From positions 77,786 to 121,134 of the forward strand of contig JAPYUK010000002.1 of the NCBI GenBank assembly GCA_029936155.1: a stretch of 43,349 bases of DNA, read 5' to 3'. The notes beneath the pieces were generated by a model. That model ran no database searches. It was not told the origin of the DNA and saw nothing but the letters and a program-made list of their open reading frames with translations. Shown here one piece after another: positions 4,085 through 8,314 of this stretch (within the stretch, counting starts at the first letter, position 1; each line of letters begins with the position of its first letter). The position numbers and the translations under genes are program-made. Origin of the DNA: Dehalococcoidia bacterium (GTDB taxonomy: Bacteria; Chloroflexota; Dehalococcoidia; Lucifugimonadales; Lucifugimonadaceae).

Positions 4085-5185
4085 GTGAGCAGCCAGAATC
4101 AGCCAAATCTTCGAATCCCAGGCCCGGTACCGCTTCCCGACGACGTGCTTGCACTCGCCGGTTCGCAGATGATCAATCACCGCGGACCCGAGTATGCCGA
4201 CATGCTCGATCGGATGTCGAAGAATCTGAAGACGGTTTTCATGACCCAGAACGATGTGTATTTCATCACATCTTCGGGAACCGGTGCTATGGAAACGTCG
4301 ATCGTGAACACGATTTCACCCGGCGACAAGGTGCTCTCGATCATCATCGGTGCATTCGGCGAGCGGTATGCCGAGATTGCCGAAGCGTACGGCGCAGAGG
4401 TCACTCAATTGAACTTCGATCTCGGCCAGGCTGCCGACATAGACAAGGTACGAGAAACGCTTCGTGGCATGTCTGACGTGAAGGCAGTTATCTTCACTCA
4501 CAACGAAAGTTCGACAGGTGTTTCGAACCCGCTGGAAGAGCTGTGCACGGTCATCCATGAGGAGTCGGATGCACTGATTCTCGTCGACGCCGTTTCGAGC
4601 GCCGGTGGTGTGCCGATCGCAGTCGACGGGTGGGGCATCGACGTTGTCGCAACCGCCTCCCAGAAGAGCTGGATTTCACCTCCTGGAATCTCGATGGTGA
4701 CCTTCTCGAAGAAGGCGTGGGCCGCTTACGAAACGTCGACGACTCCTAAGTACTACCTCGATATTAAGCAGTACGAGGACTATCTCAAGATCGGGCAGCC
4801 GCCGTTCACTCCGTGCCTGTCTGTGATGTTCACGCTCGAAGTGGCATTGCAGTCGATGGTCGACGAGGGAATCGAGAACGTCTTCGCACGCCATCACGAG
4901 ATCGCACAGCACACCCGAGACGGCGCAAAGGCGCTCGGACTCGACCTGCTGCCCGACCCCCGTTTTGCCTCGAACACCGTTACGGCTATTCGATTGCCCG
5001 AAGGCCTAGACGGCAAGGCGTTTTTGGGCCTGGTAAACAAGAACTACAACGTCGTTCTTGGTGGTGGACAGAAATCGCTGATTGGCAAAATCTTTCGATT
5101 GGGTCACATGGGCTGGGTCGAAAAGGAACACATCGACGAAGCCTTGAAGGCAGCCGAAGAAACCCTGAAGAGCATGACTTCGTAA
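4085..5185 (+). CDS. Class V aminotransferase (serine- or alanine-glyoxylate aminotransferase family)
   Basis: This is a fold-type I PLP enzyme of 366 residues, the usual length for serine-glyoxylate / alanine-glyoxylate / serine-pyruvate aminotransferases. The PLP Schiff-base lysine is K194 in ASQKSW and the PLP-ring aspartate is D168 in LVDAVSSAGG. The N-terminus NLRIPGPVPLPDDV and the segment SSGTGAMET (about 63-71) are family hallmarks. It probably moves an amino group from serine or alanine to glyoxylate, giving glycine plus hydroxypyruvate or pyruvate. The donor cannot be decided from sequence. The start is GTG at 4085. The gene is followed by an inverted repeat and a terminator and appears to be transcribed alone. 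Confidence 0.88.
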   Translation: MSSQNQPNLRIPGPVPLPDDVLALAGSQMINHRGPEYADMLDRMSKNLKTVFMTQNDVYFITSSGTGAMETSIVNTISPGDKVLSIIIGAFGERYAEIAEAYGAEVTQLNFDLGQAADIDKVRETLRGMSDVKAVIFTHNESSTGVSNPLEELCTVIHEESDALILVDAVSSAGGVPIAVDGWGIDVVATASQKSWISPPGISMVTFSKKAWAAYETSTTPKYYLDIKQYEDYLKIGQPPFTPCLSVMFTLEVALQSMVDEGIENVFARHHEIAQHTRDGAKALGLDLLPDPRFASNTVTAIRLPEGLDGKAFLGLVNKNYNVVLGGGQKSLIGKIFRLGHMGWVEKEHIDEALKAAEETLKSMTS

Positions 5186-5306: not shown

Positions 5307-6101
5307 ATGGAATTGGTTAGGACCGATCTGCTGCGAGAGACCCGAGCGCTGGTTGCAATTTCATTGATCGCAGCAGTGTTTGTGTTGACCGCAGCGTGCG
5401 GTAGTAGCTCGACTGCGCCTGTGGCTGGTGAATCTGCGCCAACCCCGCCCTCAAGCCTTACTCCTGCTCCCTTCGCAGCGTCGACTCCTACCTCAGTTGA
5501 GGCGTCGACTAATCCCACACCCACAGCCGTTGTAGAGACGATGGCTGAGGTCGAACTGACCGCTGATTCGGATACCAGTCCGGCAACATCGGTAGTAAAT
5601 CCTTCGCCACCGCCCACAGAGCCACCTCTCATCAACACCCCGGTTCCGGTCGCAAACACTGCGCCTGATTTCACTCTCCCTTCGGTTCAAGGTGTTGAGT
5701 ACACACTGTCGCAGTTCAGGGGTGAAAAGCCGGTGGCGGTTGTGTTCTATCGGGCCTACTGGTGAACGTTCTGCAGAAGGCAACTCGGGAAGTTGCAAAG
5801 AAACCAGGCCGACCTCGATGCTTCGGGCGTGCAGATACTTGCGATAAGCACTGACAATCTCGCAGGTGCCGCGGGGCTTGTGGAGGCGCAGGGCTACGAG
5901 TTTCCAATTCTATTCACAGCACTGGATAGGACGGTGCCTCAGAGCTACGGTGTGTTCGATCTGTTCGGTGATGGCCTCGCTTCGGCATCGTTGTTTTTAG
6001 TTGATACCGAGGGCGAGTTAACGTGGCAGAGTATTGGGCTGAACTACAGTCACCAGATAGAGGCTGCAGAGATTATCGAGCAGGTTGAATTGCTGAATTA
6101 G
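5307..6101 (+). CDS. Lipoprotein redoxin (AhpC/TSA-like) with in-frame TGA, probable selenoprotein (UxxC)
   Basis: Two same-frame halves are separated only by TGA at 5763-5765, and together they read as one redoxin of 264 residues with selenocysteine. Residues about 1-31 are a lipoprotein signal (hydrophobic stretch ending TAAC-G), followed by a Ser/Pro/Thr-rich linker to about residue 116. The thioredoxin-fold domain begins at APDFTLPSVQGVEYTLSQF. The active site reads FYRAYW-U153-TF-C156-RRQL, matching FYRGxWCxxC of known peroxiredoxin-like proteins with the first Cys replaced by Sec. The second half continues without a break (VQILAISTDN, FPILFTALDRTV, SYGVFDL, ASLFLVDTEGEL). A SECIS-like hairpin follows the TGA. 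TGA ends other genes here (e.g. at 1331 and 11642), so it is a normal stop in this genome. It probably reduces peroxides or thiols outside the membrane. An in-frame TTG at 5298 is the other possible start. A nonsense mutation or sequencing error is the main alternative. Confidence 0.85.
5766..5804 (+). promoter_or_regulatory. Bacterial SECIS-like element directing selenocysteine insertion
   Basis: Downstream of the in-frame TGA, GCAACT (5780-5785) pairs perfectly with AGTTGC (5791-5796) around the 5-base loop CGGGA (5786-5790). The apical loop begins 20 bases after the TGA and has a G at its second position. As I recall the bacterial SECIS rules, the loop should lie about 16-37 bases downstream with a G in one of the first two loop positions. 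A weaker lower stem, TTCT (5769-5772) with AGAA (5799-5802), may extend it. In E. coli such hairpins bind the SelB elongation factor; the equivalent here is inferred. Confidence 0.75.
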
Positions 6102-6333: not shown

Positions 6334-7002
6334 GTGACTTTGTTATTTCGAAAACTAATGGTTGTGATGACTGCGACGCTGGCGGTCGGGCTGATTTACG
6401 CGTGTTCGGGCTCTTCGCAGACGCCCGGCTCCACCCCCACCGCTACGGTCGGGATAGCGGGGGGTACGGCCGAGCCACTGGAAGCCAATATCAACGAATC
6501 AACTTCCCAAACACAAACACCCGCATCTCAAGAAAGCGTGCCGTCGGCACCACCTGTTTTTGCGATGGAGTCAATTGATGGTGAGACGATTCGGCTTGAA
6601 GATCTCGTTGGAACGGTGCCTGTGTATGTGCTTTTCGTTCCGAGCACGGCTGATGAAATTGACCGCGCTCAATTGAGCAGGATTCAGGCCCGATACGAAA
6701 CGTTTGAAGGAATGGGCGCGGAGGTTGTTGTAATTGTTTCTGATTTGCCGAAGAGGGTTATCGAGCTGCGGGATGAACTGGGCCTGAAGTTCGCACTGAT
6801 CGCCGATCCGCTGCACGTCGTGGCTTCGGATTGGAAGGTGTTTGATCTCGACCACGAAGGAAAAGTCAGCCCCGCCAGCTTCGTGTTCGATGCCCACGGG
6901 AGCCTGATCGCACGACTGGTCGCTGCGGTGACCACGGACCGGCCATCGGTCGAAGAGGTACTTTCCGTTATCGAACAGTCGCTGAGCGTAGGCGCCGCCT
7001 AG
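6334..7002 (+). CDS. Lipoprotein redoxin-like protein lacking active-site Cys (DxxD paralogue)
   Basis: This protein of 222 residues repeats the architecture of the selenoprotein upstream: a lipoprotein signal ending IYAC near residue 24, a Thr/Ser/Pro-rich linker to about 72, then a thioredoxin-like domain. The segment FVPSTADEIDRAQLSRIQ lines up without gaps with FYRAYWUTFCRRQLGKLQ of the neighbour. Sec is replaced by D107 and the resolving Cys by D110. The fold is otherwise kept (VVVIVSD, FALIADPLHVVASDW, ASFVFDAHGSLIARLV). It should not do thiol redox chemistry and may be a binding or scaffold subunit. The GTG at 6334 is assumed; ATG 6358 is an alternative start. It is convergent with the DUF1015 gene, with 7 bases between the stops. 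Confidence 0.8.
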   Translation: MTLLFRKLMVVMTATLAVGLIYACSGSSQTPGSTPTATVGIAGGTAEPLEANINESTSQTQTPASQESVPSAPPVFAMESIDGETIRLEDLVGTVPVYVLFVPSTADEIDRAQLSRIQARYETFEGMGAEVVVIVSDLPKRVIELRDELGLKFALIADPLHVVASDWKVFDLDHEGKVSPASFVFDAHGSLIARLVAAVTTDRPSVEEVLSVIEQSLSVGAA

Positions 7003-7009
7003 CGACCGT

Positions 7010-8314
7010 TTAGAGCGTTGGGCCGAACTGCTGAATAACGGCTCCGGCGGGCGGCTTCGGATAGAAGTTGGTCGCTTTGGCAGGCAATCGCCATCCGCGT
7101 GTCACGATTGAAACGAACTCGTCGAGCGGTATCGGTCGCATGATGAAGGCCATTCGCGCCTCTCCGCTTTCGATCTGCCGAGCAATCAGTCCAGCGTCGT
7201 GATGGGGACTGATGATCTCCTCTTCACGCTCTGCTGAAATCACTGGCCGAATCACGTGTGAGTGCAGCTGAGAGTACTCAGAGTTTTCAAGGGCGTTTTC
7301 GGCCGGAGGTGGCGACTTCATCCGTGCGATATGGAATTTGTCGGGTTCTTTTGAATAGAGACCGAACACTACTTCGTCGCCGCTTCGTTCACCAAGAGCA
7401 ACGGAAAAAGCTTCGATTTTCTGGGACTCTGATTCGCCTGGTTCAGGAGTCCACTCTTCGAGGTCACACGTGCTCTCGACCGTTTGCACGATCTGTGCAA
7501 ATTCACCATCTGTCGCCGATTCGATAAGCCGGTGATAGCCGCGGGTAATCAGCCCAGGCTCATCGAATGACACCATCAGCATCATCCGGAAGTTGATCGA
7601 CTCGTCGTGCCCTACTTCTCGCTCGGCGCGAACTCCGCTTCGATAGCGCAACGCTGCTTCGTAGCGGTGATGTCCGTCCGCGATGAAAATCTCGGCGTCT
7701 TTCAGCGAATCCTGAAAGACCTTGATCGTGCCCGGATCAGACACACGCCAGATTCGGAACTGAGGCATGTCGGGTGGGGTGAATACGGCGGTCGGCACCC
7801 CGCCGATGATGGCTCGAATCAGGTTGCCTACACTTGAACGCAAGTCGTCCCTGTGAATCACCAAGATCGGGCTGTAGTTCGACTGGGCAGCCGCCATCAA
7901 GTTTACTCGGTCGGTGACCCATTCTGAACGTGTTTCCTCATGCGGTAGTACGACTTCCTGATCGTAGTCCTCAAGTCTGACCGCTGCTACGAATCCTCGC
8001 CTTAAAAGCGTTTTTCCCCGGTATACAAATTCTTCTTCAGTGACATATATCGAAGAGGTTTCTTCATGTTTTAGAGCACCGGAGTCGACCCAGTCCTGAG
8101 AGGTATCGGCGGCCTGTTCGTACGGGTCGTCTGCGAGGCCGCGCCGCGCAAGTTCAAGACGAACGATATTGAATGGCGATCGGTCATACAACTCCTGCTG
8201 AAGTTGAGGTGTGATCGCGTCGAAAGGCGGGCACACGTGAAGGCTCACGTCACCTGCGACGTCGGGGTTGTATCGAACTGCCCTAAAAGGCTGAATATCT
8301 GCCACAAATCTCAC
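7010..8314 (-). CDS. DUF1015 family protein
   Basis: This 434-residue protein has the full-length DUF1015 pattern: an N-terminus ADIQPFRAVRYNP, then VCPPFDAITP, YDRSPFNIVRLEL, and the strongly conserved central IADGHHRYEAALRYR. The GHHR motif resembles the DGxHR box of ParB/sulfiredoxin-like nucleotide-binding proteins. That has led to the idea that such proteins act on small phosphorylated substrates, but I do not assign a reaction. In other bacteria the family often occurs near serine biosynthesis genes; none adjoins it here. The start is GTG at 8314. The gene is transcribed divergently from ligA across a 222-base gap. Confidence 0.85.
   Translation of the reverse strand: MRFVADIQPFRAVRYNPDVAGDVSLHVCPPFDAITPQLQQELYDRSPFNIVRLELARRGLADDPYEQAADTSQDWVDSGALKHEETSSIYVTEEEFVYRGKTLLRRGFVAAVRLEDYDQEVVLPHEETRSEWVTDRVNLMAAAQSNYSPILVIHRDDLRSSVGNLIRAIIGGVPTAVFTPPDMPQFRIWRVSDPGTIKVFQDSLKDAEIFIADGHHRYEAALRYRSGVRAEREVGHDESINFRMMLMVSFDEPGLITRGYHRLIESATDGEFAQIVQTVESTCDLEEWTPEPGESESQKIEAFSVALGERSGDEVVFGLYSKEPDKFHIARMKSPPPAENALENSEYSQLHSHVIRPVISAEREEEIISPHHDAGLIARQIESGEARMAFIMRPIPLDEFVSIVTRGWRLPAKATNFYPKPPAGAVIQQFGPTL

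Follow-up and report, generated by a model that had tools for sequence, protein, structure and literature searches.

The question raised by this locus is whether a TGA codon that interrupts a redoxin gene ends it or specifies selenocysteine (Sec). The window, by which we mean the whole stretch of 43,349 nucleotides that was analysed (GCA_029936155.1, contig JAPYUK010000002.1, positions 77,786 to 121,134 of the forward strand), comes from a Dehalococcoidia genome (G000) of 2,069,910 bases in 84 contigs that is 89.34% complete. This genome belongs to the same genus as G041, the closed genome (CP046147.1) of the cultured SAR202 strain Candidatus Lucifugimonas marina JH1073. The sole internal stop of the frame at 5307–6101 is the TGA at 5763–5765, in the context VVFYRAYW-U-TFC-RRQL (U marks the TGA). 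We put the probability at roughly 0.88 that the gene encodes a selenoprotein, in which this UGA would be decoded as Sec and the product would be a lipid-anchored, extracytoplasmic redoxin on a stalk rich in Pro, Thr and Ser. This reading draws on features of the sequence itself, namely the TGA codon, a selenocysteine insertion sequence (SECIS), the Sec genes, the fold, the UxxC motif and a lipobox.

An in-frame TGA within a redoxin gene

The initial annotation described two halves of one redoxin, in the same frame and split by a TGA at the redox motif. The Pfam comparison bears this out: the read-through protein matches the AhpC-TSA family (4.1e-24, 85.3 bits against a cut-off of 26) over residues 115–240, and residue 153, encoded by the TGA, lies inside the match. 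The UTFC tetrapeptide has the form UxxC, and its U and C positions are both invariant in alignments A1 and A2, in which Sec was written as Cys. Residues 27–31 of the protein (LTAAC) constitute a lipobox, and the residues before Cys31 we take to be a signal peptide. A lipobox pattern is found 5′ of the TGA in the frames of 27 of 30 relatives; in the other three, none was seen (L025), the lipobox precedes an upstream TGA in the same frame (L037) or the sequence is VFAC, which is outside the pattern used (L041). The window product is described here as a putative lipoprotein, which would be lipidated and located at the cell surface.

The interrupting codon is shared widely among relatives. A family sample of 76 genomes was searched at thresholds of E <= 1e-8 and E <= 1e-20. 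At the stricter threshold 45 genomes gave a redoxin match, the best of which always contained exactly one in-frame TGA and no other stop. The looser threshold raised the number to 49, with weaker matches in G045, G053, G056 and G074; the 27 genomes without a match at 1e-8 are mostly small and from other genera. When read codon by codon, 30 of 30 loci (30 genomes) have TGA at the motif codon. Among loci from named genomes it is present in 33 of 36 (many of these 33 are from the same genomes as the 30), and three distant loci (L152, L154 and L155) have Cys, so that homologues with either TGA or Cys at this codon exist, in line with a check that the initial annotation had suggested. In a class-wide sample of 294 genomes, 26 gave a total of 31 matches at E <= 1e-28, each with one TGA (a count of the codon irrespective of its position).

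The sequence beyond the TGA was examined by the ratio of nonsynonymous to synonymous substitution rates (dN/dS). Over the 111 codons 3′ of the TGA, dN/dS was 0.037–0.19 in 17 of 21 pairs drawn from seven sequences of the genus and undefined in the other four; dS is mostly saturated in these pairs and the exact values carry little meaning. The ratios point to purifying selection that acts 3′ of the TGA. If the TGA were a true stop, the gene would be truncated or decaying, or would encode a stand-alone N-terminal lipoprotein. Decay does occur in the family, as the copy in the congener G056 has a TGA elsewhere and has lost the motif. However, the recurrence of the same TGA in every locus read by codon, its presence as the single TGA in all 45 strong family matches, the selection on the codons that follow and the AhpC/TSA domain that spans the codon together make a true stop very improbable.

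Many more distant redoxins of the family also carry one in-frame TGA (among them G026:C19, G034:C11 and G073:C85, again irrespective of codon position), and these are probably other selenoproteins.

The hairpin and the selenocysteine machinery

A stem of 6 bp, whose loop CGGGA begins 20 bases after the TGA, had been proposed as a SECIS element. It is present as described, with GCAACT (5780–5785) and AGTTGC (5791–5796) enclosing the loop (5786–5790). In bacteria, according to the available text of PMC1088965, the SECIS is a stem-loop that follows closely on the UGA and whose small apical loop contains a G. The hairpin was compared in 50 segments, 46 of them distinct, consisting of 34 first copies, one of them in the window and 33 in other loci, plus 16 tandem copies; all 50 have G at position 2 of the loop. 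The six stem pairs are formed in 266 of the 276 cells of the distinct segments (96.4%). Changes on both sides of a pair occur in 17 stem cells, compared with 5.7 in shuffled alignments, and none of 500 shuffles reached 17. The stem also codes for Q-L-x-x-L-Q, and a coding-aware null was therefore built from random synonymous codons with the usage of five window genes; its 300 draws gave 201 +/- 6 pairs, with a maximum of 219, against the observed 266. Conservation of the TGA, of the stem and of the loop G extends across genera, which places the hairpin beyond chance. The covariation and the excess over the coding-aware null indicate that it is under selection, in agreement with the SECIS reading.

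The initial annotation also implied that the organism carries selA, selB, selC and selD. This holds in G000 for selA (509 bits, cut-off 267.9), for selB (339.5 bits, cut-off 242.25) and for the 3′ end of selC, of which the final 28 bases are found with a 96% match at C46:76860-76887, where the contig stops (at 76887), in synteny with the selC locus of G041. It does not hold for selD, which was not found in G000; the stretch syntenic with G041 breaks off where contig C40 ends, some 3.9 kb before selD, which places the expected selD position in an assembly gap. Among 18 congeners, selD is present in 17 and a near-full selC in 16, with a contig-end piece in G056 and none in G046. ARAGORN predicted a tRNA-SeC with anticodon tca in ten of 13 loci scanned (nine genomes), and of the 45 genomes in which the TGA redoxin match is strong, 43 have a selB above the cut-off. 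The absence of selB or tRNA-Sec from a complete genome of the lineage would have spoken against Sec; the closed genome G041 contains the redoxin gene, selB, selD and a tRNA-Sec with anticodon TCA. The selA, selB, selC and selD set is thus present in the lineage and, in part, in the G000 assembly. All of the checks suggested with the initial annotation that were carried out supported its interpretation.

Matches to the Rfam tRNA-Sec family were obtained in 14 of 14 control genomes, over the cut-off in five, and bare matches were not used as proof. The selD-like matches in G000 come from paralogues, namely HypE/ThiL-like ones and PurL. Additional or incomplete selC copies occur in G044, G049, G052, G053, G054, G058, G056 and G000, several of them at contig ends, and selC may be an integration site for mobile elements that breaks assemblies. 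An Rfam scan of the window itself returned one tRNA only.

A further alternative is selenium-free decoding, in which a suppressor or an altered code would insert Cys or Trp at the TGA. The distant homologues with Cys at the TGA position would fit such a code, as would the rarity of TGA as a stop: the initial annotation held TGA to be a normal stop elsewhere in the window, which is so, but it ends just two of the 22 other open reading frames checked (not all 22 are confirmed genes). TGA does end other genes, however, for example that for DAHP synthase (1331–1333). In addition, selA, selB and the end of selC are present, most congeners have selC and selD, and the TGA is followed by a hairpin of SECIS type that appears to be selected. 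Of 57 matches to selD, 55 are themselves read through a single in-frame TGA, and the selD product, the Sec-making enzyme, is by this evidence a selenoprotein in the family. Selenium-free decoding is therefore scarcely more credible than a true stop, and Sec insertion is the reading that we retain. Seven read-through frames of the window, a subset in which the TGA was not located in every case, were compared with Pfam, and in none did a single known domain clearly extend across an in-frame TGA together with a redox motif.

Active site and likely chemistry

The structure and profile comparisons rank AhpE and Bcp4 best, with thiol-disulfide oxidoreductases of the ResA/TlpA type as weaker matches. 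The Pro of PxxxTxxC and the active-site Arg are class-defining residues of peroxiredoxins. The window sequence FYRAYWUTFC aligns with FYPAAFTQVC and FFPLAFTGIC, such that Pro is replaced by Arg and Thr by Sec and the PxxxT/SxxC pattern is lost, while Cys156 aligns with the peroxidatic Cys of solved peroxiredoxins. The column of the active-site Arg contains Ala (LASAS, compared with LAKRA in 2ywn). The domain thus combines, on the evidence of these alignments, the fold of a peroxiredoxin with a UxxC site of thioredoxin type, and it lacks the standard peroxiredoxin residues. AhpE and Bcp/PrxQ (1xxu, 4x0x, 3hjp and 2ywn) differ from it in having Thr or Ser where the window protein has Sec and in retaining their own active-site Pro and Arg; the window protein adds the lipobox and the stalk.

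No NCBIfam model reaches its cut-off with the window protein. The best match is the SelL-related NF040769 (46.2 bits against a curated 120 bits, 3.8e-12), which covers residues 118–201 alone. The Acidobacteria homologues L152 and L154, with 36–37% identity to the window domain, have VFYRAYWCPFCVRQL opposite YRAYWUTFCRRQL; Cys replaces Sec and an insert of five residues (YAGQD) before DG is absent from the window protein. Cys also replaces Sec in the more distant Anaerolineae homologue L155 (30%). The initial annotation had noted that Sec is known in peroxiredoxin-like families, and the closest likeness is indeed to the published Prx-like (peroxiredoxin-like) UxxC selenoproteins (PF00578), which share the AhpC/TSA fold, Sec as the first residue of UxxC and a SECIS right after the UGA. 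Knowledge of them dates from the Sargasso Sea survey ('Prx-like protein'; available text of PMC1088965). They proved abundant in the Global Ocean Sampling data, with 225 sequences of 'Prx-like 1' (portion available of PMC2398784), and are listed in a 2026 review as 'Prx-like thiol:disulfide oxidoreductase' with 1–2 Sec per protein (portion available of PMC13188914). Within those portions, PMC2398784 does not mention lipoprotein, signal peptide or Chloroflexi and PMC13188914 does not mention lipoprotein or Chloroflex, and it is by these descriptions that the window protein is set apart. The Prx-like UxxC kind is therefore already known, and what appears to be new is the form found in SAR202, with a predicted lipid anchor, a stalk, a conserved locus and multi-Sec members. 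Relatives in viral contigs were sought, and none of 20 pattern matches was confirmed; phage records gave just three distant matches.

In the mechanism that we propose, SelB and tRNA-Sec would decode the UGA at 5763–5765 under the direction of the hairpin at 5780–5796. Sec153 would stand in for the first Cys of a thioredoxin-type CxxC, here set on a peroxiredoxin fold, and would attack an oxidized substrate, either a disulfide or a peroxide, outside the membrane. Cys156 would then resolve the adduct to give a selenenylsulfide (a Sec–Cys bond), which a thiol donor would reduce again. As the most likely chemistry we favour that of an extracytoplasmic reductase whose selenol acts either in thiol-disulfide exchange or on peroxides. 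The cultured SAR202 cells have no peptidoglycan genes and have a layer outside the membrane (according to the available text of PMC10444878), and from this it is probable that the stalked lipoprotein faces outwards.

Two other functions were considered for the Sec protein. It might act as an ordinary peroxidase of the peroxiredoxin type rather than in a thioredoxin-like manner, which the fold, the ranking of AhpE and Bcp4 and the position of Cys156 would favour. Since Sec occupies the Thr/Ser place of peroxiredoxins, the Pro of PxxxTxxC is Arg and the Arg column is Ala, we regard this as possible but the less likely option. It is a good deal less likely still that the protein is an extracytoplasmic disulfide oxidase or isomerase, or a protein that handles metal or selenium, and not a reductase. 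The weaker ResA/TlpA-type matches are compatible with an oxidase or isomerase, but peroxiredoxins score best and the UxxC lies within an otherwise peroxiredoxin-like domain.

Several observations weigh against a selenium-dependent reductase at this locus. The G000 assembly, at its level of completeness, lacks selD and a full selC, and its one Rfam tRNA-Sec match over the cut-off (at C81, 52.3 bits) was identified by ARAGORN as tRNA-Ser gct and rejected. The Sec redoxin copy of G056 has decayed, and G042, G045 and G053 gave no strong redoxin match in the family genome search; for these reasons members of the genus can do without the Sec redoxin. When the 48 bases that follow the TGA are folded singly, the hairpin is the structure of lowest energy in just 20 of 30 relatives; RNAalifold retains four of the six pairs (-2.37 kcal/mol), and one stem pair is broken in seven of the 46 distinct rows. 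The three Cys homologues still form five, five and four of the six pairs, and hence the stem is partly a by-product of the coding sequence; we read it as a coding near-palindrome that was co-opted and later maintained by selection. With the peroxiredoxin Pro and Arg absent, peroxidase activity is no more than a possibility. Finally, in the search for a reductant, no DsbD/CcdA membrane domain (DsbD_TM) exceeded the cut-off in G000, G041, G007 or G008.

The locus in SAR202 and its meaning

The features of the locus are collected in Table 1. The genes for tyrosyl-tRNA synthetase (TyrRS), the class-V aminotransferase, the redoxin or redoxins and DUF1015 adjoin one another in five of five loci from three genera. 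The Cys-less paralogue that the initial annotation placed beside the gene is conserved in the genus: it occurs in 11 of 11 named genus loci examined and also in G056, in which the Sec gene has decayed (window; L120–L130, L115). The remains of that decayed gene lie around 4690–5300 of L115 (G056:C3), with stops and a lost motif region, next to an intact paralogue.

Table 1. Features of the redoxin locus, in window coordinates
Feature	Position	Strand	Remarks
Class-V aminotransferase	4085..5185	+	Conserved upstream neighbour
Predicted Sec-containing redoxin gene	5307..6101	+	264 aa via TGA read-through; TAG stop at 6099-6101
Putative signal peptide with terminal lipobox LTAAC	5307..5399	+	Cys31 (5397-5399) is the residue predicted from sequence to be lipidated
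Low-complexity stalk, 81 residues	5400..5642	+	21% Pro, 17% Thr, 16% Ser, 14% Ala
AhpC/TSA (peroxiredoxin-fold) domain	5649..6026	+	Residues 115-240
TGA, predicted Sec153, first position of UxxC	5763..5765	+	Partner Cys156 at 5772-5774
Bacterial-type SECIS hairpin	5780..5796	+	6-bp stem, loop CGGGA, conserved G at loop position 2
Redoxin-fold lipoprotein paralogue	6334..7002	+	No Sec or Cys at motif (VPSTADEID); AhpC-TSA 5.2e-16
DUF1015 gene	7010..8314	-	Conserved downstream neighbour

In genomes of genus g2, three Sec redoxin genes lie side by side. In G008 (L165:3737-5851, - strand) a single read-through frame of about 700 codons encodes a lipobox and three AhpC/TSA domains joined by Pro/Thr linkers. 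Each domain has a UxxC TGA with its own SECIS-like stem, and a fourth TGA lies near the natural end. The fusion is likely a three-Sec lipoprotein with the fourth TGA as its stop, a prediction that sets it apart from the 1–2 Sec listed per Prx-like protein (portion available of PMC13188914). It was seen in one of seven genome regions scanned.

The distribution of the machinery varies among the genera. In genera g4 and g5, whose genomes are small, all 14 genomes lack a selB over the cut-off, a selD and any match to the redoxin, and the Sec trait seems to have been lost there. Most members of g6 and g10 keep selB, selD or both, without a redoxin of the window type. SelA and SelB have also been described as co-occurring in most bins of sponge symbionts, from various phyla (available text of PMC5649159).

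On balance we lean, by a modest degree, towards a broader interpretation: that SAR202 and related Dehalococcoidia possess an extracytoplasmic, lipid-tethered selenium redox system of stalked Sec redoxins, with a conserved locus, tandem expansion, one three-Sec fusion and, in Lucifugimonas, a motif-less partner. SAR202 is a ubiquitous and abundant clade of marine bacteria, first cultivated in the work described in PMC10444878 (as its available text states). Searches of the open-licence literature that also covered Lucifugimonas, Chloroflexota and Dehalococcoidia found no paper that connects SAR202 with selenoproteins, and 'selen' does not occur in the main text of PMC10444878.

Because a slow-growing, light-inhibited congener exists in culture whose closed genome has the gene, selB, selC and selD, both the claim and its physiological meaning are directly testable. 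The three-Sec fusion offers a natural test of the frequency of recoding per message. If the reading is correct, Sec-TGA genes in SAR202 genomes would be mis-annotated as truncated, the redox defence of SAR202 would depend in part on the selenium of seawater, and the clade would long have possessed a redox relay or a defence at its surface that is built on selenium.
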